Assembly: GCF_900169275.1 (NCBI RefSeq)
Contig: NZ_FXZC01000005.1
Location: forward strand, 62,001-126,000
Length of the DNA stretch: 64,000 nt
Origin: Brevibacterium casei CIP 102111
GTDB taxonomy: Bacteria; Actinomycetota; Actinomycetes; Actinomycetales; Brevibacteriaceae
Direction of reading: 5' to 3'
Part shown: piece after piece, positions 2,002-24,219 of the stretch
Layout of the letters: each line of letters opens with the position of its first letter
Position numbering within the stretch: position 1 is the stretch's first letter
The notes under the pieces: generated by a model
What the model was told of the DNA's origin: nothing
Database searches by the model: none
Seen by the model: the letters and a program-made list of their open reading frames with translations, nothing else
Translations under genes and position numbers: made by a program

Positions 2002-3585
2002 ATGTCGACCACCACCGCCGACACCGGAAAGGCAGCCGGCAGCCCTGACCGCCTCAGCTGGCTGATGAAGGTCCTCGTCGTCATCGAGAAGGCCGGCAAC
2101 AAGCTCCCGCACCCGTTCTGGCTCTTCCTCTCGCTCGCCGTCATCGTCATGATCCTCTCCGCGATCTTCTCCGCGACCGGGCTGAACGCGGTCAACCCGG
2201 CAACCGGGGAGACGGTGACCGTGACGAACCTCTTCACCACGGAATCCCTGCGCGAGATCGTCGGGGGAGCGGTGATGAACTTCGTCACCTTCCCACCGCT
2301 GGGTCTCGTCATCATCGTCCTCCTCGGCGTCGCCGTCGCCGAGCAGTCCGGGCTCATCCCGGCGATGCTTCGCGGCACCATCGCCGGCGCCTCGCCGAGG
2401 TGGATCACCTTCATCGTCGCCCTGGCCGGCACCGCCTCGTCGATCGCCTCCGACGCCTCGTACATGATCATGATCCCGCTCGGCGGGCTCGCCTTCCGCG
2501 CCGTGGGCCGCAACCCGATGCTCGGCTGCATCGTCGCGTATGCCGCGACCTCCGGCGGGTACTCCGCGGCCCCGATGGTCAATGCCATGGACACCGTGCT
2601 CGGCGGTCTCTCCACCTCGGCGGCGCAGATCATCGACCCCGAGTACGTCGTCAGCCCGGTCGCGAACTTCTACTTCAACTTCATCTCGATGTTCGTCGTC
2701 GCCGGGGCGATCACCCTGGTCACCGAGCTCCTCCTGTCCAAGCGCGCCGACGCGATGGAGCTCGACCCCCTCGATGAGGACGATCCGGAGGCCTTCGATG
2801 TCAAGATGGCCCTCGACGCGAAGGAGAAGCGCGGTGTGCTCTTCGCCGTCATCACCATCGTCGTCTGCGCCGCGATCCTCTTCTTCCTCGCCCTGCCCGC
2901 CGATTCGTTCCTCCGCGACGAGGCAGGCGGCTTCGGACCCGAATCCGGGCTCATGGCAGGCATCGCCGCGATCATCGGCTTCGGCTTCTTCATCGTCGGC
3001 ATCGTCTACGGCTACGCGACCGGTTCGATCACGAAGATCACCGAGATCCCGGAGATGATGGGCAAGGGCCTGCTGCCCTTCGTCCCCGTCATCGTCCTCT
3101 TCTTCGCCGCCAGCCAGTTCCTCGCCCTGTTCAAGATGTCGAGCCTCGGCGAGATCCTCGCGATCCGCGGGGCGGACTTCTTCGGCTCGCTCGACACCTC
3201 GACGTTCGTCATCCTCCTCGGCGGCTGGCTTCTCGTCGCCCTCGGCGCCCTCTTCCTCACCTCCGGCTCCGGTCTGTGGACGCTCATGGCTCCCGTCCTC
3301 GTGCCGATGTTCATGCTCCTGTCGATCTCCCCGGAGACGACGCAGGCCCTCTACCGGATCGGCGATTCGACGACGAACATCATCTCCCCGATGTCGCCGT
3401 ACTTCGTCGTCGTCCTCGGCTTCATCCAGCGCTACAAGCGCGACGCCGGCATCGGCACGCTCCTGTCGTTCACGATCCCGCTCTCGTTCACGATGTTCCT
3501 CTTCTGGGGCCTGCTCTTCTTCCTCTGGTGGTTCACCGGCCTCCCATGGGGACCCGGTGCGGCCATGCACTACCAGATGAACTGA
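2002..3585 (+). CDS. AbgT-family transporter
   Basis: This 527-residue integral membrane protein belongs to the AbgT family, first described for p-aminobenzoyl-glutamate import in E. coli; some members export sulfonamides. It starts with a short cytosolic lead and KAGNKLPHPFWLF, a hallmark of the family, followed by about 10-12 hydrophobic segments. The conserved block ASSIASDASYMIMIPLGGLAF and the later GDSTTNIISPMSPYF (re-entrant loop and substrate region) are both present. ATG 2002 is preferred over GTG 1957 because GAGGAG sits at 1990-1995. No folate genes lie nearby, so the substrate is open. It appears to be a single-gene transcript between the ino1 terminator and the next promoter. Confidence 0.9.
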   Translation: MSTTTADTGKAAGSPDRLSWLMKVLVVIEKAGNKLPHPFWLFLSLAVIVMILSAIFSATGLNAVNPATGETVTVTNLFTTESLREIVGGAVMNFVTFPPLGLVIIVLLGVAVAEQSGLIPAMLRGTIAGASPRWITFIVALAGTASSIASDASYMIMIPLGGLAFRAVGRNPMLGCIVAYAATSGGYSAAPMVNAMDTVLGGLSTSAAQIIDPEYVVSPVANFYFNFISMFVVAGAITLVTELLLSKRADAMELDPLDEDDPEAFDVKMALDAKEKRGVLFAVITIVVCAAILFFLALPADSFLRDEAGGFGPESGLMAGIAAIIGFGFFIVGIVYGYATGSITKITEIPEMMGKGLLPFVPVIVLFFAASQFLALFKMSSLGEILAIRGADFFGSLDTSTFVILLGGWLLVALGALFLTSGSGLWTLMAPVLVPMFMLLSISPETTQALYRIGDSTTNIISPMSPYFVVVLGFIQRYKRDAGIGTLLSFTIPLSFTMFLFWGLLFFLWWFTGLPWGPGAAMHYQMN

Positions 3586-3698
3586 CGTCCCCCGCAGAGG
3601 GAGAAGTCGCGGAATACGGCCGAATCGCCCAGCGTTACAATCACACAACGCTCTGTCGCCCGACCCTGCGGTCACAGTTGCCATCCAGGTGTGACGGC

Positions 3699-3704
3699 TA
3701 GACT
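3699..3704 (+). promoter_or_regulatory. Candidate -10 box (TAGACT) for the Bax-inhibitor-1-like gene
   Basis: TAGACT with a TTGCCA at 3678-3683 (15-base spacer, short) lies about 70 bases before the GTG at 3777. Plausible but not certain. Confidence 0.35.
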
Positions 3705-3776
3705 TGAGCGTGATGTTCGATTCGCGCGACGACCGGTCTGCGCGACCCGCATACTCAGATCGAAAGGATCTCGACC

Positions 3777-4574
3777 GTGAGTAACCCCATGATGGACCGC
3801 ACCATCAGAGAAGGCGTCCAGGCGGGACGCAACCAGCAGCCCGTCATGACCGACCAGCAGCTCAACGACCTCTTCAACCAGCCGGCAGCGGAGAACCGCA
3901 ACACCGGCCGCCCCGTCGACGACCGGGCGATGACCTACGACGACGTCATGATGAAGACGGGTGTCCTCTTCGCCATCCTCCTCGCCGGCGCCGTCCTCGG
4001 CTGGTTCGTGCCCGTGCTCGCCTTCCCGGCGATGCTCATCGGCCTCGTCCTCGGCCTCGTCAACGCGTTCAAGCGCGAACCCAACAAGGGCCTCATCATC
4101 GGCTACGCCGCGTTCCAGGGAGTCTTCCTCGGCGGCATCTCGATGTTCTTCGAGACCCGGTACCCCGGCATCGTCCTTCAGGCGGTGCTCGCGACACTCT
4201 GCGTCTTCGGCGTCATGCTCGCCCTCTTCAAGTTCAAGGGCGTGCGCTACGGCTCGAAGATGATGAAGTTCATGATGATCGCCGTCGGCGGCTACGCGAT
4301 CTTCTCGCTCATCAACTTCGGCTTCGCGATGTTCACCGGCACCGGTGGTGCCCGGTCGATCGAGGTCTTCGGCATGCCCCTCGGTGTCGTCATCGGCATC
4401 GTCGCCACCATCCTCGCCGCGATGACCCTCATCGCCGACTTCCAGATGGTCGAAGAGGGCGTCAAGCAGCGCATTCCCGAGAAGTACTCGTGGCTGTGCG
4501 CGTTCTCCCTCATGACCACCCTCGTCTGGCTCTACATCGAGATCCTGCGCCTCATCTCCTACTTCAGGAACTGA
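3777..4574 (+). CDS. Bax inhibitor-1/YccA family membrane protein
   Basis: This 265-residue protein has an about 60-residue hydrophilic N-terminal arm rich in Gln/Asn followed by seven hydrophobic segments. The ending YSWLCAFSLMTTLVWLYIEILRLI and the conserved ADFQMVEEGV (with the family's buried acidic pair) are diagnostic of the actinobacterial Bax inhibitor-1/YccA group. These are thought to act as pH-sensitive calcium leak channels or protease modulators in the inner membrane; the role here is not known. The start is GTG with GAAAGGATC just upstream. A perfect hairpin that begins 46 bases after the stop may terminate this transcript as well as opening the next gene. Confidence 0.85.
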   Translation: MSNPMMDRTIREGVQAGRNQQPVMTDQQLNDLFNQPAAENRNTGRPVDDRAMTYDDVMMKTGVLFAILLAGAVLGWFVPVLAFPAMLIGLVLGLVNAFKREPNKGLIIGYAAFQGVFLGGISMFFETRYPGIVLQAVLATLCVFGVMLALFKFKGVRYGSKMMKFMMIAVGGYAIFSLINFGFAMFTGTGGARSIEVFGMPLGVVIGIVATILAAMTLIADFQMVEEGVKQRIPEKYSWLCAFSLMTTLVWLYIEILRLISYFRN

Positions 4575-4603
4575 CGCAGGGGCGTCGCAGTGCCTGCGGC
4601 GCC

Positions 4604-4609
4604 TATGAT
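4604..4609 (+). promoter_or_regulatory. Leaderless promoter -10 box (TATGAT)
   Basis: TATGAT is separated by exactly 6 bases from the ATG at 4616, so the transcript would begin at the start codon. There is no Shine-Dalgarno sequence before this ATG, which agrees with leaderless translation. Confidence 0.6.
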
Positions 4610-4615
4610 TGAGCC

Positions 4616-4945
4616 ATGAACACGCAGACGGCGGACCTCGACACCGAGGTCCGCCGTCTGCGTGTGCGCATCATCGGGCTCACCTCCGCCCAGCTCGCCG
4701 CGCCAGGGGAGAAGTCGACGACGTCGCGTCGGGACTCCATCGCCGCGGCGCTCGCCGAGTTCTCAGCGATCGGCTCGAATGGTCGCGCGGTTCCCGATCT
4801 CGGAGACCAGAGTCTCGCCGACCAGGTCGTCGTCCTCATCGAGACCGGCAGACGGCGAGCAGAGATGCTCGATTCCGCATCGCGCGAACAGCTGCTCGGC
4901 CGCCTCCTCGACGCCGCAGTGGACCTGCGCCGGAGACTGGCGTAG
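4616..4945 (+). CDS. Hypothetical 109-residue charged helical protein
   Basis: Not recognised. The product is a small soluble protein with predicted amphipathic helices: LDTEVRRLRVRIIGL near the start and a long Leu/Arg-rich helix in the last 45 residues. There are no cysteines and no membrane segment. Base composition and codon use match true coding sequence. It lies 3 bases ahead of the molybdoenzyme gene, so the two are probably co-transcribed. The start has a -10 box 6 bases upstream and no ribosome binding site (leaderless). Codons 2-17 form a perfect 20-bp hairpin in the mRNA, which is very unusual for a translated 5' end. Confidence 0.65.
   Translation: MNTQTADLDTEVRRLRVRIIGLTSAQLAAPGEKSTTSRRDSIAAALAEFSAIGSNGRAVPDLGDQSLADQVVVLIETGRRRAEMLDSASREQLLGRLLDAAVDLRRRLA
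4621..4664 (+). repeat. Perfect 20-bp inverted repeat at the 5' end of a coding region
   Basis: Bases 4621-4640 are the exact reverse complement of 4645-4664, with loop ACAC at 4641-4644. The hairpin starts 5 bases inside the ORF at 4616. It could terminate upstream transcription, gate translation of the leaderless mRNA, or both. No T-run follows. Confidence 0.9.
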
Positions 4946-4948
4946 GCC

Positions 4949-6595
4949 ATGACCGATCGCCGACCCTTCGTCTTCGCGCTGGCCGGAGCGGTCGCCGCGC
5001 TGACCTACTTCGGCTCCTCGGAATTCCTCGCCGGGATCCTCTCGCTCACCTCGGCGCCGCTGCTCGTCCTCGGGCAGACGGTCATCCCGCTCGTGCCCAC
5101 AGCCCTCATCAAAGCGGCCATCGCGCTCTTCGGGACGGGTGACAAACTCGCCCTCGTCATCACCATCGCCGTCGTCGGCGTCCTCCTCGGCGGTCTCATC
5201 GGGTGGCTCGGCGCGCACCATCGCAGCCTCTCCCTCATCCTCCTCATCGGGTTCGGAGCCCTGCCGGTCGTCCTGCAGCTCACCACCGGAGGGACGCTGG
5301 TCGGCGCGCTGCCTGCGCTCGTCGGGATCGGTCTCGGCTGTGCGACGTATCTCGGGTTGCTCCGCCTCGGCAGGGCGGACCACCGCACCGAACGGGTTTC
5401 TGTGCCTCCCGCCATGGTCCCGGCATCCGCGAAGACCGGTGGGCCCGCGGAGACCGTCGAGCGTACGGACACAGCCGAGGTTTCGGGGGCCGTCGAACAG
5501 GCGGACACGGCCGACGGTCCCGACCGGCGGCTGTTCCTCGGCATTGCCGCGGGGCTGAGCGCGATCGGGGTCGCGGCGATCGCGGCCGGACAGTCCGCAG
5601 CGGTCCTCGCGCGGAACGCGGCAGGTACGGTGGCGAACCTGGTGCTGCCACGACCGGCCGCCTCGGCGCCACCCATCCCCGCGGGAGCGGACCTCGAGAT
5701 CGACGATCTCGCCCCGATCGTCACACCCAACGCGGACTTCTACCGGATCGACACTGCGCTCGTCCCACCCGCCGTCGACGCGGCGACGTGGTCGCTGCGG
5801 ATCCACGGAATGGTCGAGCGGGAGGTGACGCTGACGATGGAGGAACTGCTCGCGCTGCCCCTCGAGGAGCACTACGTCACGCTCACCTGTGTGTCGAACG
5901 AGGTCGGCGGGGACCTCGTCGGCAACGCGAAGTGGCTCGGCTATCCGGTGCGCGAACTCCTCGCCCGGGCCCGGCCGAAGCAGGGGGCGGACATGGTGCT
6001 CTCGGGCTCCGACGACGGCTTCACCGCCTCGACGCCGCTCGAGTTGCTCACCGACGACCGCGCGGCGCTGCTCACCGTGGGGATGAACGGAAAGCCGCTG
6101 CCCCGCGACCACGGGTATCCCGCGCGCCTCGTCGTCCCCGGCCTCTACGGGTTCGTCTCGGCGACGAAGTGGGTGACGAGTCTCGAGGTCACCCGGTTCG
6201 CCGACAAGCAGGCGTACTGGACGACCCGGGGCTGGTCGACGCACGGGCCCGTGCTCGTCGCCTCCCGGGTCGACGTGCCGCGCGCCGGTGCCCGGGTGCC
6301 GGCGGGCAACGGGCAGGTCGTCACCGCGGGCATGGCCTGGGCCCAGCACACCGGGATCGGGCAGGTGCAGGTGCGTCTCGACAACGGCGATTGGCAGACG
6401 GCCGAGCTGAGCGAAGAGCTGAGCGTCGACACGTGGCGGCAGTGGCGGCACGTCTTCACCGACGTCGCACCCGGCAGCCACACGGTGACCGTGCGGGCCA
6501 TCGACAAGGACGGCACCGTGCAGATCTCCGACCGCAGGCCCGCGATCCCCGGCAGTGCGACGGGCCTCCACGACCGCGACTTCACCGTCGAGTGA
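4949..6595 (+). CDS. Membrane-anchored molybdopterin-dependent oxidoreductase (sulfite oxidase/YedY-like)
   Basis: This 548-residue protein has an N-terminal membrane domain with about four hydrophobic segments (residues 1-140), a Thr/Glu/Ala-rich linker, a further hydrophobic helix at about 180-205, and then an extracytoplasmic molybdenum-cofactor domain. The motif YVTLTCVSNEVGGD (about 308-321) contains the Cys that ligates molybdenum in the sulfite oxidase superfamily. GLYGFVSATKWVTSLEV and the C-terminal Ig-like dimerisation domain (AQHTGIGQVQVRLDNG onward) complete the architecture. It may oxidise sulfite or reduce oxidised sulfur groups outside the membrane; no heme or SOR-type partner gene is adjacent. 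The gene lies 3 bases after the small leaderless ORF. Confidence 0.9.
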   Translation: MTDRRPFVFALAGAVAALTYFGSSEFLAGILSLTSAPLLVLGQTVIPLVPTALIKAAIALFGTGDKLALVITIAVVGVLLGGLIGWLGAHHRSLSLILLIGFGALPVVLQLTTGGTLVGALPALVGIGLGCATYLGLLRLGRADHRTERVSVPPAMVPASAKTGGPAETVERTDTAEVSGAVEQADTADGPDRRLFLGIAAGLSAIGVAAIAAGQSAAVLARNAAGTVANLVLPRPAASAPPIPAGADLEIDDLAPIVTPNADFYRIDTALVPPAVDAATWSLRIHGMVEREVTLTMEELLALPLEEHYVTLTCVSNEVGGDLVGNAKWLGYPVRELLARARPKQGADMVLSGSDDGFTASTPLELLTDDRAALLTVGMNGKPLPRDHGYPARLVVPGLYGFVSATKWVTSLEVTRFADKQAYWTTRGWSTHGPVLVASRVDVPRAGARVPAGNGQVVTAGMAWAQHTGIGQVQVRLDNGDWQTAELSEELSVDTWRQWRHVFTDVAPGSHTVTVRAIDKDGTVQISDRRPAIPGSATGLHDRDFTVE

Positions 6596-6627
6596 GAGCG
6601 GCGGGCCGCGGGCGGGCCTCTTGGCAC

Positions 6628-6689
6628 CGACGCGGTGAACCGACAAAAACGCGGTTAGCACACCGCGTTTTTGTCGGTTCACCGCGTCG
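6628..6689. repeat. Perfect 28-bp inverted repeat (bidirectional terminator or genome repeat)
   Basis: Arms 6628-6655 and 6662-6689 are exact reverse complements around the 6-base loop TAGCAC. Each arm carries an A5/T5 tract flanked by GC-rich sequence. It lies 32 bases after the molybdoenzyme stop, so it could act as a terminator, but the length and perfection exceed a normal terminator. Confidence 0.9.
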
Positions 6690-6769
6690 ATGGCCGTCCT
6701 GCTACCGAAATCGTCGCCGAGGCAGTGGCGAAGCTTGCGGTCGGCCCCTCCGGCTTTCCCCGCCGCCTC

Positions 6770-6866
6770 GGCTGTATCCTCGGAGGGACAGCCCGACTCC
6801 GAAGCTGTCGAGCGGTACCCTGCCGGTCTGAGCGCTGGCGCTGAGAGTCACAGCGAGGTGATCTTC
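6770..6866 (+). ncRNA. Candidate structured 5' leader upstream of the symporter operon
   Basis: Bases 6770-6866 hold mutually exclusive pairings. GGCTGT (6770-6775) can pair with ACAGCC (6788-6793), and that ACAGC could instead pair with GCTGT (6804-6808), which in turn can pair with ACAGC (6850-6854) to close a multi-branch fold. TCGGAG/CTCCGA (6780-6785/6797-6802) and AGCG/CGCT (6831-6842) are further stems. This looks like a riboswitch or attenuator leader but fits no class recognised by eye. Confidence 0.35.
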
Positions 6867-7082
6867 ATGTTCGGCCTGCCGATGACCACGGTCGTCATCA
6901 TCTTCGGCATCCCCGCCCTCTGGGTCCTCTACACCCTAGTCTTCGTCTTCCTCTCTCGACGCTGGTCGGCGGAGGATATCGACGACCCGGGCGCTGCCTC
7001 GGCGAGCGGATCCGTAACCGGCACAGACCCCACCGCCGGACATGACCGCAGCGTGGGACCGGAGAACGGGGGACGGCCATGA
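6867..7082 (+). CDS. Small single-pass membrane protein of the symporter operon
   Basis: This 71-residue protein begins MFGLPMTTVVIIFGIPALWVLYTLVFVFLSR in outline: one long hydrophobic segment (about residues 5-30) and a polar acidic C-terminal tail. Small one-pass proteins encoded directly ahead of sodium/solute symporters are common in actinobacteria and are thought to be accessory subunits; this is inferred from position. Its stop overlaps the symporter ATG by 4 bases (ATGA), so translation is coupled. The ATG at 6867 is preferred because the longer open frame from 6690 would run from inside the 28-bp repeat through the structured leader, and GAGGTGATCTTC precedes 6867. Confidence 0.7.
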   Translation: MFGLPMTTVVIIFGIPALWVLYTLVFVFLSRRWSAEDIDDPGAASASGSVTGTDPTAGHDRSVGPENGGRP

Positions 7083-8617
7083 ACATCGAGACGTGGTTCC
7101 TCATCATCTACTTCGTCGCGATGGCCGGCATCGGCGTGTGGACGATGCGGATCGGCTCGCAGGGGTCAGAGGGCTACCTCCTCGGCGGACGCAGCCTCGG
7201 CCCCGCGGTCACCGCGCTGCGCCTTCAGTCCTCGTCGATGTCGGGGTACATGTTCCTCGGCGCCGGGTCGCTCGGCTACACGCAGGGGTACTTCTCGCTG
7301 TGGTACGCGATGGGCGACATCGGCGGCGGGGTCCTCAACCTCTCGATCCTCGGCCGGCGGATGCGCAAGCTCTCCCAGATCCTCGGCTCGCTCACCTCGA
7401 TCGGGTATCTCGAGCAGCGGTACCCGTCGAAGTGGATCCGGGCGATCGCCGCCCCGATCGCGCTCTTCTGCATCTTCTTCTACGTCATGAGCCAGTTCAT
7501 CGCAGGAGGTCGCGGCCTCGAAATGGTCACTGGCATCCCGTACGCGTGGGCGCTGCTCGTCGCCGTCGGGGTCATCGTCTTCTACACGTTCCTCGGCGGC
7601 TATCTCGCCGTCGCCTACACCGACTTCGTCCAGGCGATCATCATGTGCATCGGCATGGTGTGGATCCTCATCGGCACCCTCCAGGCCGTCGGCGGGTGGA
7701 CCGCCGGCAACGAGGCGGTCGGACAGATCAACCCGAACCTGCTGACCATGTGGGGTCCCGGAGGATTCGCCGACGTCCAGTGGGGCATCATCATCGGCGC
7801 CGTCCTCGTTTTCTCGATCGGCTACATGGGCTGGCCGCACGTCAACGTCAGCCACATGGCGATGCGGAAGCCGTCGGTGGCGAGGACGGCGAGCCTCTAC
7901 GCCACCGGGTTCAACCTCCTCTTCATCCCAGCCCCGTACATCGTCGGGATCATGGCGCTCATCATCCTGCCCAGCCTCGACAATCCCGAGCTCGCGGTCT
8001 TCCAGGTCGCCGACACTGTCCTGCCCGACTTCGCCGTCGGCATCGTCATGGCCGGCATCATGGCGGCGATCATGTCCACCGCCGACGCCCTGCTCCTCCA
8101 GTCCGGGACGATCGCCAGCCAGGACCTCTTCCAGCGCTTCGTCCGCCCGACCATGAGCGACCGGCAGTCGGTGTGGGTTTCCCGCTTCACCGTCCTCCTC
8201 CTCGCGATCATCGGCTACGTCGTCGCCGTGGGCGACCCGCCCGCCGTCGCCGAGGTGGTCATCTTCTCCACGACCGTCCTAGGCGCCGCCTTCGTCCCCG
8301 TCTACATCGCCGCCGCCTGGTGGAAGAAGGCGAACGTGCCCGGTGCGATCGCCTCGATGCTGCTCGGCACCGTCTCCTCGGTGGGATGGCAACTCAGCGG
8401 GCTTGTCGACGTCACCGCGATCGACCCCATGGGAGTCGGCATCGTCGCCTCAACCCTGGGAATCATCGTCGTCTCCCTCGCCACCCAGAAGTCCCACCCC
8501 GTGCCTGCGCACATCGTCGCAGCCCTCGAGGAGACGGCGAAGATCGGTCCGATCCCCGCGCGCATGCTCACCGGACAGAACGACGCGCTCGCCTCCCAGG
8601 TGCCCAAGGATGTCTGA
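7079..8617 (+). CDS. Sodium:solute symporter (SSS family)
   Basis: This 512-residue protein has about 13 hydrophobic segments in the PutP/PanF/ActP fold. Features of the family include GGRSLGPAVTALRLQSSSMSG in the first two helices, FLGGYLAVAYTDFVQAIIM (core helix with substrate and sodium contact residues) and GIMAAIMSTADALLLQSGT (helix 8 region with the Ser/Thr that bind sodium). The solute cannot be read from sequence; amino acids, monocarboxylates and pantothenate are options. It is translationally coupled to the small membrane protein upstream and overlaps the next gene, giving a three-gene operon behind a possible RNA leader. Confidence 0.9.
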   Translation: MNIETWFLIIYFVAMAGIGVWTMRIGSQGSEGYLLGGRSLGPAVTALRLQSSSMSGYMFLGAGSLGYTQGYFSLWYAMGDIGGGVLNLSILGRRMRKLSQILGSLTSIGYLEQRYPSKWIRAIAAPIALFCIFFYVMSQFIAGGRGLEMVTGIPYAWALLVAVGVIVFYTFLGGYLAVAYTDFVQAIIMCIGMVWILIGTLQAVGGWTAGNEAVGQINPNLLTMWGPGGFADVQWGIIIGAVLVFSIGYMGWPHVNVSHMAMRKPSVARTASLYATGFNLLFIPAPYIVGIMALIILPSLDNPELAVFQVADTVLPDFAVGIVMAGIMAAIMSTADALLLQSGTIASQDLFQRFVRPTMSDRQSVWVSRFTVLLLAIIGYVVAVGDPPAVAEVVIFSTTVLGAAFVPVYIAAAWWKKANVPGAIASMLLGTVSSVGWQLSGLVDVTAIDPMGVGIVASTLGIIVVSLATQKSHPVPAHIVAALEETAKIGPIPARMLTGQNDALASQVPKDV

Positions 8618-20610: not shown

Positions 20611-22008
20611 ATGACCCTCGTCCAGATTCTCATCCTGGTGGTACTGGTGGTGATGTTCATCGCCGCCACAAAGTGGCCGATCAACATCGGCATCATGGGG
20701 TTCGTCGGAGCGTTCCTCTTCGGCACCTTCGTCTTCGGCATGGACGACAAGGAGATCCTCGAGGAGTTCCCCGCGAGCATCGTCCTCACCATCGTCGGAG
20801 TGACGTTCTTCTTCAGCATGGCCCAGCGCAACGGGACCATCAAGATGCTCGTCGACCTCGCCGTGCGCGCCGTGCGCGGACGCCTCGGCATCGTCCCGTG
20901 GATCTTCTTCGTCATCGCCTCGATCCTCACCTCCCTCGGCACGTTCTCCCCGGCGGCCGTCGCCCTGCTGGCTCCCGCAGCGATGGGCTTCAGTGCCGCC
21001 TCGGGCTACAGCGGCGTGGTCATGGGCGCGATGATCATCAACGGCGCCCACGCCGGAGCGTTCTCACCGATCTCCGTCTCGGGCATCATCGTCCGCGACA
21101 TCGCCGCGGAGAACGGCTTCGACATCGACCAGGGCGCCCTCTTCGCCGCCTCGTATGCGATCAACGTCATCGTCACGATCCTCACCGTCGCCGTGATGCG
21201 GGTCTTCGGTCGTCTGCGCACCACACCGGAACCCGAGGCCGTGGATGAGGACGACGGCCCCACCGAGGCGACACCCTCGAGCGGTGCGGGCGCGCCCGCG
21301 GGCCGCCTCGGCGGGACGGCGGCCCCCGCGGGCACCGGGACGTCGTGGGGCAAGGGCGGAACGACACTCGCGGACCCGGCACCCGCCTCGGCGCCGGTGG
21401 GACGCTCCGTCCTCACCCCGCAGGTGTGGCTGACGCTCTCCCTCATCGCGGTCATGGTCATCGGTGCGGTCGGCTTCGAGCTGCCGATCGGGTTCCTCGG
21501 TCTCACCTGCGGTCTCGTCCTCGCGTTCACCTCGATGAAGCACTCGGACACGTTCGTCTCGGGGATCTCGTGGTCGACGGTGCTCCTCGTCTCGGGCATG
21601 ATCGTCTACATCTCCCTGCTCACGAAGGCGGGCGTCATCGATTCGCTCTCGACGATGGCCGTCTCGATCGGCATCCCGCTCCTCGTCGCCGTCGTCCTCT
21701 GCTACGTCATCGGCATCAGCTCCGCCTTCGCCTCGTCGACGGCGCTGCTCACCGCGTTCATCCCGCTCTCGATCCCGTTGCTCGAGCAGAGCGAGCTCAG
21801 CGCGACCGCGGTCATGGCCGCACTCGCGATCTCGGCGACGATCGTCGACGTCTCCCCGTTCTCGACGAACGGCGCCCTCATCATCGCCAACGCGAAGGGC
21901 AGTGCGGCGAAGACGATCTGGCGCGACCTCATCATCTACGGTGCGATCGTCGTTCTCCTCGCCCCGCTTCTCACGTGGCTGCTCCTCGTCGTCTCGGGCA
22001 TCATGTGA
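20611..22008 (+). CDS. MatC-type (SLC13-like) dicarboxylate/tricarboxylate carrier
   Basis: This 465-residue membrane protein has two hydrophobic halves of about five segments each. They are separated by a long hydrophilic loop rich in Gly, Ala, Thr and Pro (about residues 205-275). The N-terminal half (GFVGAFLFGTFVFGMDDKEILEEFPASIVLTI) matches the MatC N-terminal domain known from malonate/dicarboxylate carriers. The repeat pairs ILTSLGTFSPAAVALLAP and ISATIVDVSPFSTNGAL resemble the SNT-type substrate loops of SLC13 transporters. TTGGAGGACCTCCC precedes the ATG. Substrate inferred to be the PrpF substrate. Confidence 0.82.
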   Translation: MTLVQILILVVLVVMFIAATKWPINIGIMGFVGAFLFGTFVFGMDDKEILEEFPASIVLTIVGVTFFFSMAQRNGTIKMLVDLAVRAVRGRLGIVPWIFFVIASILTSLGTFSPAAVALLAPAAMGFSAASGYSGVVMGAMIINGAHAGAFSPISVSGIIVRDIAAENGFDIDQGALFAASYAINVIVTILTVAVMRVFGRLRTTPEPEAVDEDDGPTEATPSSGAGAPAGRLGGTAAPAGTGTSWGKGGTTLADPAPASAPVGRSVLTPQVWLTLSLIAVMVIGAVGFELPIGFLGLTCGLVLAFTSMKHSDTFVSGISWSTVLLVSGMIVYISLLTKAGVIDSLSTMAVSIGIPLLVAVVLCYVIGISSAFASSTALLTAFIPLSIPLLEQSELSATAVMAALAISATIVDVSPFSTNGALIIANAKGSAAKTIWRDLIIYGAIVVLLAPLLTWLLLVVSGIM

Positions 22009-22022
22009 CGACGTGACAGACG

Positions 22023-22056
22023 CGGGTGGGCCCCTCCGAACGGAGGGGCCCACCCG
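22023..22056. terminator. Strong bidirectional terminator hairpin
   Basis: CGGGTGGGCCCCTCCG and CGGAGGGGCCCACCCG are perfect complements with only AA between them. It lies between the convergent MatC gene and iron permease gene and can serve both. Confidence 0.85.
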
Positions 22057-22095: not shown

Positions 22096-24219
22096 CTAGG
22101 CCCGTGACCGCGCGAGCAGCCACACGAAGTAGGGAGCGCCGATGAGGGCGACGATGAGGCCGGCGGGGATCTGTGCGGGGGCGATGACGGTGCGCCCGAG
22201 GGCGTCGGCGACGACGAGCCCGAGGCCGCCGAGGAGCATCGCGACGGGGATGACCCGGGAATGGCGGCTGCCGACGAGGGCGCGGGCCGCGTGCGGGGCG
22301 ACGAGCCCGACGAAGCCGACGACGCCGACCGCGGAGACGCTCACCGCTGCCAGGACGGCCGCGGTGATGAGCACACCGAGGCGGACGGGTTCGCGGGCGA
22401 CTCCGACGAGCCTCGGCGTGTCGTCGTCGAGGGCGAGGAGGTCGAGCTCCCGACTCCACACCGCGGCGAGCGGGATGGCGATGACGAGGACGAGGACGAC
22501 GGGTGCGACATCGGCCCACACGCGCCCGTACGTCGACCCGGACAGCCACGTGAAGATCGCCGGGGTGTCCCACGGATTCGCGCGGATGAGGAAGAGCGTG
22601 GTCAGAGCCGTGAAGCCGTACCACAGGCCGATGCCGATGAGGACGAGGCGGTCGGTGTTCATCCCGCCCCGCCACGACAGGCCGTAGACGATCGCGAAGG
22701 CGACGAGTGCCCCGATGATGCCGACGGTGGAGATGAGGACGACCGTGGCGCCGGGAACGAGGGTGACGACGATGACGGCGCCGAGCCCGGCCCCGCCGGT
22801 GATGCCGAGAAGCCCGGGCTCGGCGAGCGGATTGCGCGCACTGGCCTGGACGAACGTGCCCGAGAGGGCGAGCGCGGCACCGGCGAGGAGGGCAGCGGCG
22901 ACCCGCGGTGCCCGGGAGTCGAAGGCGAAGCCGATCACCGGGGCCGCCTGATCGCGCAGCCACAGGGCGACGTCGCCGAGGAGGTAGAACCGTTCCCCGG
23001 TGAGCAGGGCGAGGACGGTGGCGACGAGGATGCCGACGGTGAGGGCAGTGATGACGAGCGCGGCGCGACGGCCACCGTGCACCGTGCTCCGCGCTGCCGA
23101 GGTCGGCTGTGCCGGACCCGTGGTGCGCATCCGGCGGGCGAGCAGGACGAGGATGATCGCGCCGAGGATGGTCGTCGTCACCCCGGACGGCAGGGTGATC
23201 GCGGCCGTGGCTCCGACGATCGCGCGGAGCACGGCGTCGGCGAGGACGACGATGATCGCCCCGATGAGTGCGGTCGCGGGGATCATCACGACATGTTTGG
23301 CGAGCACCGGGACGAACCGCGCGAGCAGGCGGGTGATCACCGGCGCGGCGAGGCCGACGAAGCCGATCGGCCCGGCCAGCGTCACTGCGGTGGCGGTGAG
23401 GAGGACAGCGAGGATGACGCCGATGGCCCGCGTCGAGCGGATCGGAACGCCGAGCACCGCAGCCGTGTCGTCGCCGAGGCTGAGCAGATCGAGGCGGCGG
23501 GCGAGCAGGAGGGCCGCTGCGACGATGACGGCGATGACCGGGGCGCTGCGCAGGGCTGCCGAGCCGTCGAGCTGATTGAGAGTGCCGGAGCCCCAGGAGA
23601 AGAGGCTCGTCGTCTCCTCGGCGAAGAGGATGAGCAGCGTCGACGTGCCCGCCTGCAGGGCCAGCGCCGTGGCGGTGCCGGCGAGGACGAGCCTCGTCGT
23701 CGACGCCGCGGCCCCGCCGGCGAGTCCGAGGACGAGCGCGGCGGCGAGGAGGCCGCCGGCGAACGCGACACCACCGGAGGCCCACACCGGGACGGCGAGC
23801 CCGAAGGCGGTGACGAGGGTGACGGCGAAGTAGGCCCCGCCGGTGACCGCGAGCGTGTCCGGGGAGGCGAGCGGGTTGCGGGCCAGCGATTGGAAGAGGG
23901 CGCCGGCGACGCCGAGGGAGATGCCGACGAGGACGGCGGCACTCACGCGCGGCAGCCGCGATCCGATGAGGATGTCGCGGACACTGGGACCCGCCTCGGC
24001 GCGGGAGGCGGCACCGGTGAGCGCTCCGAGGAGGTCGCGCAGACCGATCCCCGAGGTGCCCTGCGTGATGTGCCACGCCGAGAGCACGAGGAGGACGACG
24101 GCGAGACCGACGAGGACCCCGGTGGCCGTGAGCGCACCGAGGAGGCCGACGCCCCGGGACGGCGCCGCGGCACCGTCCCGGACGTCGGTCTCAGCGGCGT
24201 CGGTGGACGTCTGGGTCAC
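22096..24219 (-). CDS. Fused iron-siderophore ABC transporter permease (two FecCD domains)
   Basis: This 707-residue protein is a head-to-tail fusion of two FecCD/BtuC-type permease domains, each with about nine to ten hydrophobic segments, as in FhuB. The repeated motif RLPRVSAAVLVGISLGVAGALFQSLARNPLASP in the first half and SRAPRVAAALLAGAALALSGTFVQASARNPLAEP in the second (described in outline) marks the two copies. Each has a GLAAPVITR/GLVAPHAAR coupling loop for the ATPase. It would replace the two separate permease subunits. Its ATG overlaps the stop of the binding-protein gene by 4 bases. It is the last gene of the iron operon. Confidence 0.92.
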   Translation of the reverse strand: MTQTSTDAAETDVRDGAAAPSRGVGLLGALTATGVLVGLAVVLLVLSAWHITQGTSGIGLRDLLGALTGAASRAEAGPSVRDILIGSRLPRVSAAVLVGISLGVAGALFQSLARNPLASPDTLAVTGGAYFAVTLVTAFGLAVPVWASGGVAFAGGLLAAALVLGLAGGAAASTTRLVLAGTATALALQAGTSTLLILFAEETTSLFSWGSGTLNQLDGSAALRSAPVIAVIVAAALLLARRLDLLSLGDDTAAVLGVPIRSTRAIGVILAVLLTATAVTLAGPIGFVGLAAPVITRLLARFVPVLAKHVVMIPATALIGAIIVVLADAVLRAIVGATAAITLPSGVTTTILGAIILVLLARRMRTTGPAQPTSAARSTVHGGRRAALVITALTVGILVATVLALLTGERFYLLGDVALWLRDQAAPVIGFAFDSRAPRVAAALLAGAALALSGTFVQASARNPLAEPGLLGITGGAGLGAVIVVTLVPGATVVLISTVGIIGALVAFAIVYGLSWRGGMNTDRLVLIGIGLWYGFTALTTLFLIRANPWDTPAIFTWLSGSTYGRVWADVAPVVLVLVIAIPLAAVWSRELDLLALDDDTPRLVGVAREPVRLGVLITAAVLAAVSVSAVGVVGFVGLVAPHAARALVGSRHSRVIPVAMLLGGLGLVVADALGRTVIAPAQIPAGLIVALIGAPYFVWLLARSRA

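Follow-up and report, generated by a model that had tools for sequence, protein, structure and literature searches.

The baxI locus and the stem in the first codons of the small ORF

The DNA analysed here, called the window, is a stretch of 64,000 nucleotides of Brevibacterium casei CIP 102111. On its forward strand lies a gene of the Bax inhibitor-1 family (baxI-like, positions 3777-4574, 265 aa; Pfam BaxI_1, E 1.5e-76), whose stop codon occupies 4572-4574 and is followed after 41 nt by a small ORF on the same strand (4616-4945, 109 aa, predicted to be leaderless) and then, 3' of the ORF, by a molybdopterin-domain gene (4949-6595). The spacer carries a putative -10 box of a leaderless promoter, TATGAT, at 4604-4609, separated from ATG 4616 by 6 bases exactly as the preliminary description had it. 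It also carries a hairpin absent from that description, at 4580-4604 on the forward strand, with 11 bp including one G-U pair and a loop of 3 (best 45-nt intergenic MFE -21.3), and the 3' arm of this weaker hairpin extends to the first base of the -10 box. The small ORF belongs to a family without a name and matched nothing in Pfam or NCBIfam. When 13 members of A4 were compared with Pfam, five families each matched a single member, with E values of 0.0027-0.093 (DUF3323 best), and none of these identities was used. The ORF is present in 56 of the 57 genomes of the genus, and an order-wide profile search found it in 99 of 396 genomes and 28 of 109 genera, with 64 matches outside the genus.

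The first codons of the small ORF form a perfect inverted repeat in which positions 4620-4640 pair with 4645-4665 around a loop at 4641-4644. A perfect stem with a 4-base loop had been described here before, and this holds, except that its length is 21 bp rather than 20. The stem begins 5 nt into the predicted leaderless message, and codons 3-8 pair one to one with codons 16-11. The RNA of positions 4596-4690 (95 nt) has an MFE of -61.4 kcal/mol compared with a shuffled mean of -33.3 (z -8.5), and 0 of 200 shuffles were as stable. The stem ranks third among the listed inverted repeats of the 64-kb window, and it is the longest fully complementary repeat in the best 25 of the 29 found there. 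Synonymous recodings of the same 14 residues, drawn from codon tables built by pooling small samples within a genus or family, had a mean of -18.1 for the stem region compared with the actual -41.8, and none of 1000 was as stable (p=0.001). Among the 45 gene starts that a simple gene caller predicted in the window, this one also had the lowest codon-controlled z, -4.8, while the next value was -2.9 and the mean of the starts was 0.18.

The longest inverted repeat of the window lies at 6625-6692, with arms of 31 nt (97%). Its inner GC stem stands between an A-run and a T-run, and the repeat, which comes 3' of the molybdopterin-domain gene, has the appearance of a two-way terminator. Next to it, a small ORF with a hydrophobic stretch (6690-7082) overlaps by its 3' end the start of a sodium:solute symporter gene (7079-8617), and it may presumably encode a symporter accessory protein. 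Elsewhere in the window, a perfect hairpin of 16 bp (22023-22056, loop of 2 nt) lies between two converging predicted genes, 20611-22008 (+) and 22096-24219 (-).

With respect to baxI, the stem in the first codons lies 46-91 nt 3' of the stop codon. It shares with canonical intrinsic terminators a stable GC-rich hairpin 3' of a stop codon; the U-tract of such terminators was not found, as the 10 nt that follow the stem contain 2 T, and a terminator scan found 0. A stable stem without a U-tract after a gene is how the I-shaped actinobacterial terminator is defined in part of the text of PMC5335608, and this is the arrangement observed. A search of Rfam over 3500-7200 gave no match at the gathering score; matches were sub-threshold only, of miRNA type at the stem.

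The leaderless start assumed in the preliminary description was supported by comparison with 54 usable orthologous loci in Brevibacterium. The motif TANNNT is found 12 nt 5' of the ATG in 35 of them and 13 nt 5' in one more, so that 36 of 54 orthologs have a conserved -10 hexamer a short way 5' of the start codon. A single supported clade of the BaxI tree (36 rows) consists of 35 of these 36 box-bearing genomes together with G074, whose ORF start is not on the contig; the 36th, G005, has no BaxI to place in the tree. The remaining 18 orthologs carry no box at that place, and in these the distance from the baxI stop to the ORF start is 1-115 nt. Judged from these sequences, the start of the small ORF is very probably leaderless in the clade of the window.

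Adjacency of baxI and the coding hairpin in Brevibacterium

We classified the Brevibacterium loci by the position of baxI. In 30 of the 54, baxI lies directly 5' of the small ORF on the same strand, with 31-151 nt from its stop to codon 11 of the ORF (adjacent), and in 23 it lies further off, from 152 nt to about 6 kb (separated). The cut at 151/152 nt was our own choice: G032 (151 nt) was scored as adjacent, while the separated group includes G072 (152 nt) and G066 (291 nt), in which a spacer with a dedicated hairpin, and not several genes, lies in between. G005, in which no baxI was found, was counted apart, and three genomes were dropped before counting, namely G074 (ORF cut by the contig end), G036 (Ns) and G075 (no ORF found).

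A codon-controlled hairpin excess at p<=0.05 was found in 29 of the 30 adjacent genomes compared with 3 of the 23 separated ones; at p<=0.01, the counts were 22/30 and 0/23. The lone adjacent genome short of the first threshold was G014 (0.083), and the separated genomes with an excess were G001 (0.012), G008 (0.017) and G022 (0.030). Moving G072 to the adjacent side changed the counts to 29/31 and 3/22. In G005, where the search found no baxI and a different gene lies upstream, the coding hairpin is nevertheless strong (p=0.001).

The stem follows baxI and not the leaderless start, because box-bearing orthologs separated from baxI have largely lost it and box-less orthologs keep it. The excess is largely missing from the 23 separated orthologs, all of which retain the -10 box at the same distance from the ATG (3/23 at p<=0.05), whereas 17 of the 18 orthologs without the box show it at that level, although in two of the latter, G004 and G026, the hairpin reaches only -16.5 and -18.7 kcal/mol.

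Where baxI is separated from the small ORF, it is followed by a hairpin of its own. A strong intergenic hairpin was found within 120 nt after baxI in all 24 genomes inspected (the 23 separated ones and G074), with best 45-nt MFE values of -32.2 to -38.7, which none of 40 shuffles reached in any genome, and a core that is mostly GGGCGGA..TCCGCCC. A strict either-or between intergenic and coding hairpins in Brevibacterium was nevertheless rejected, as an intergenic hairpin of some kind (-13.5 to -31.2) is present in every one of the 15 adjacent genomes whose spacer measures at least 36 nt, among them that of the window, while the strong coding stem persists in 14 of them. The exception is G076, in which baxI is adjacent and is followed by an intergenic hairpin of the GGGCGGA..TCCGCCC type, and the coding stem is weaker (-20.8, p=0.031).

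Several observations concern what lies between the two genes. In several separated species (L075-L093, L099), an aldehyde-dehydrogenase-like gene seems, as judged by eye, to end shortly 5' of the ORF; G005 likewise has an aldehyde-dehydrogenase-like ORF upstream, with a LysR-like ORF, also named by eye, between it and the small ORF. Going by these sequences, an insert between baxI and the small ORF may recur across separated species. In G006 (L004), the baxI-ORF region occurs three times: one contig carries a copy on each strand, and the third copy, whose baxI has three in-frame TGA codons, is on a different contig; this is either a duplication or an assembly artefact.

To count independent events, a clade tree of 36 rows was built from baxI, the ORF minus the stem, and the next gene. 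With the trait defined as adjacency without a dedicated hairpin (G076 being grouped with the separated genomes) and a strong hairpin defined by a cut-off of MFE -28 or lower set post hoc, the trait changed 3 times and the coding hairpin agreed in 3 of 3 cases (sign test p=0.25). With only 3 independent contrasts showing a hairpin difference, significance is out of reach for the sign test. When bare adjacency was taken as the trait, there were 4 contrasts, of which 3 agreed and 1 showed no difference, and counting G072 as adjacent gave 5, of which 3 agreed and 2 showed no difference. Other scorings also gave 3 agreeing contrasts, 0 against and 0-2 without a difference, and when G005 was scored as separated, 3 agreeing contrasts were obtained in 195 of 200 pairings.

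Covariation of paired bases and coding stems in other families

Covariation was examined in a register of 18 pairs. The adjacent set comprised 22 distinct sequences from 29 genomes (G076 and G005 were left out), and its covariation score was reached by 0 of 500 shuffles, which, like all of the covariation shuffles, did not control for relatedness. At pair 6-35, the 22 adjacent sequences have GC in 10, AU in 7, GU in 5 and none unpaired; at pair 14-27, they have CG in 11, UA in 5, UG in 3 and an unpaired or other combination in 3. The number of covarying pairs alone, 4, was not above the shuffles (170/500). In the separated set (20 distinct sequences from 23 genomes), the score was reached by 431 of 500 shuffles; base-pair covariation is thus confined to the adjacent set. 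The check proposed in the preliminary description, an alignment of orthologs, accordingly showed paired positions covarying while the protein changes. Together with the recoding result, this bears out the earlier view that the stretch is under constraint both as codons and as RNA: the two marks of a selected RNA structure within a coding sequence, a stability beyond what the protein accounts for and covarying paired sites, were both found.

In other families of the order, 53 loci, which are not mutually independent, were examined among the 64 other-genus genomes with an ORF match. The small ORF follows baxI in 44 of them; in 41 of these, the frame is open from near the baxI stop, and in 3 (G040, G058 and G345) an intergenic hairpin precedes the ORF start. 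Over the first 90 nt of the 41 adjacent loci, the mean codon-controlled z was -1.88, and 20 of the 41 fell below -2 compared with 5 of 147 control windows. The proportion below -2 varied among families, being 9/9 in f14, 8/12 in f7, 1/2 in f5, 2/13 in f17, 0/3 in f18, 0/1 in f2 and 0/1 in f16; f17, all 13 loci of which are adjacent, and f18 illustrate that adjacency is not always accompanied by a coding stem. None of the 9 f15 loci with baxI elsewhere and none of the 3 loci with an intergenic hairpin before the ORF fell below -2. A BaxI was detected in 12 of the 13 f15 genomes, its gene not adjoining the small ORF, and an intergenic hairpin of -31.8 or better follows 11 of these 12 baxI genes, with 10 of the 12 beating all 40 shuffles.

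An alternative run with guessed starts pointed in the same direction, with a mean z of -1.93 and 52% below -2 in the 44 adjacent loci, compared with a mean of +0.17 and none below -2 in the 9 separated ones. This run missed N-terminal extensions in G274, G049 and G194 and placed the start of G303 inside its stem; G037 and G051 fell below -2 with guessed starts (75 nt) and not with the 90-nt windows. The sequence of the stem and its position in the ORF vary from family to family. Two loci, L162 (G303) and L170 (G274), have perfect stems of 16-17 bp in their first codons with sequence unrelated to that of Brevibacterium, and in both, the GTG start of the ORF may overlap the baxI stop (GTGA).

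The 3' end of baxI and the start of the next gene

The explanation that we favour, with moderate confidence, is that the coding hairpin is a 3'-boundary element of the baxI-like transcript, acting as a U-poor terminator, a block to 3' exonucleases or both, and lying in the first codons of the next gene. This is the simplest account of a stem that follows baxI and not the leaderless start, and that has an intergenic counterpart instead where baxI lies away from the ORF. As RNA polymerase leaves baxI, ribosomes would drop off at the stop codon 4572-4574, so that the stretch 3' of it would be free of ribosomes and the stem 4620-4665 would fold behind the polymerase, where it would either halt transcription or set the 3' end of the baxI RNA. 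Messages of the small ORF would begin at their own AUG, and a ribosome on the first codons would hold the stem unfolded and allow passage. The element would thus end the baxI RNA, by whichever biochemistry, and translation would mask it. The preliminary description had suggested, as one option, a terminator of the Bax-inhibitor-like gene shared with the next coding sequence; what stands of this is a terminator-like element linked to baxI (29/30 vs. 3/23), while termination itself we only infer. Several observations count against the 3'-boundary reading: the stem has no U-tract, G005 is an exception, some intergenic hairpin is present in the 15 adjacent genomes with the longer spacers, the tree contrasts are few (p=0.25), coding stems are scarce in f17 and absent from the 3 loci of f18, and the number of covarying pairs does not exceed that of shuffles.

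A broader form of this reading, which we put forward tentatively and regard as possible but doubtful, is a gene boundary gated by ribosomes in several families, in which the stem would end the baxI RNA and be opened by ribosomes loading at the ORF's own start. That start would be leaderless in one Brevibacterium clade and would coincide with a stop-start overlap or near-overlap in other groups, and one stretch of codons would let its own message pass and end that of its neighbour.

The alternatives differ in what the stem would serve. It might be a translational insulator or stoichiometry valve, in which a stem after the ORF start blocks or limits re-initiation by baxI ribosomes on read-through mRNA, so that little ORF protein is made. 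The same link with baxI adjacency fits this proposal; coupling is likely in the many relatives whose ORF overlaps the baxI stop or begins 1-30 nt past it; and internal stem-loops are reported, in the available parts of PMC9045158 and PMC10311766, to set operon stoichiometry. However, separated baxI genes have hairpins of their own (24/24 in Brevibacterium, 11/12 in f15), which suggests that the need lies at the end of baxI and not at the start of the ORF, and the position of the stem within the ORF differs among families. We regard an insulator as unlikely.

The preliminary description had put first a built-in off switch or a shield against degradation, in which a stem at the 5' end of the leaderless message regulates the small ORF, either by interfering with 70S binding or by protecting that end. 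The conservation of the leaderless box in 36 of 54 orthologs and the beginning of the stem 5 nt into the message speak for it, but the box is kept in separated genomes of which only 3/23 have the excess, and the excess is present in 17/18 orthologs without the box. Close relatives thus keep the ORF without a hairpin excess, a finding that the preliminary description itself had named as a refutation of its proposal and that applies here to the switch. As the main function of the stem, we reject a leaderless off switch, and we consider this reading improbable, although a secondary, switch-like effect may exist in baxI-adjacent leaderless species.

Little probability also attaches to a site for RNase III or other processing that would split the baxI and ORF messages: uninterrupted duplexes of 21-22 bp do occur in G000, G016 and G032, but these are the only adjacent orthologs that pair unbroken over all 18 positions of the fixed register, the others having at most 14 pairs from the loop. 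Finally, it is very improbable that the stem is a by-product of encoding a charged amphipathic helix (ADLxTEVRRLR) in a GC-rich genome, since, although the residues favour codon-codon pairing (randomised codons give a mean of 12.7/18 pairs in G000), the stem differs from synonymous recodings (p=0.001), nearly the same residues separated from baxI show no excess (G060, G067 and G078, p 0.175-0.462) and the covariation involves synonymous sites, so that helix coding as the sole cause is contradicted by the codon and covariation tests unless the codon model, with its small usage samples, is badly wrong.

Returning to the 3'-boundary reading, the locus would be a case, with natural experiments, in which the transcript end of one gene is apparently written into the coding start of the next, and in which the coding stem is apparently replaced by an intergenic one where baxI and the ORF lie apart. 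It makes two questions testable, namely whether U-less stems end actinobacterial transcripts and whether a terminator lying only a few nucleotides from the transcription start can be masked by leaderless ribosomes. In addition, the codon usage and N-terminal residues of such ORFs would reflect selection on RNA as well as on protein.

The closest known systems are the U-poor terminators of GC-rich actinobacteria (the I-shaped type, and those of Streptomyces in the TERMITe atlas), which resemble the stem of the window in having a very stable GC-rich hairpin with few U past a stop codon and in showing covariation. According to part of the text of PMC12207403, the hairpins of Streptomyces terminators are very stable and show covariation, 3-4 U occur in 10 nt, and the distance from CDS to end has a median of 66-76 nt; the 3' base of the stem in the window, 91 nt after the stop, lies somewhat beyond this median. 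The stem differs from these terminators in lying within the first codons of the next gene, in a sequence constrained by the protein, and in having 2 U in 10 nt, and its termination would be inferred only. For Mycobacterium tuberculosis, an I-shaped element is described in the accessible portion of PMC5335608, where such hairpins are stated to be common in mycobacteria and active in vivo, and where Czyz 2014 is cited as reporting that M. bovis RNA polymerase needs a U-tract in vitro; termination by U-less stems in actinobacteria is disputed.

Translating ribosomes suppress intrinsic terminators, as reported in the parts of PMC4824070 and PMC5021804 at hand, and by analogy a ribosome over the stem of the window should block it; the difference is that the ribosome would here come from a predicted leaderless start 4 nt before the stem. 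The internal terminators and stem-loops that set operon stoichiometry in Clostridia likewise lie between operon genes, but their embedding in the codons at the start of the next gene is not described in the portions of PMC9045158 and PMC10311766 available. Leaderless genes of Mycobacterium share a -10 box just before the ATG and the absence of a Shine-Dalgarno sequence, whereas the corresponding portion of PMC4633059 describes no conserved stem at the start. Our search of the open-access literature, with most subscription papers outside its scope, found no description of a codon-embedded, relocatable baxI end. The component parts are known from these systems, and the arrangement at baxI is a variant of them.
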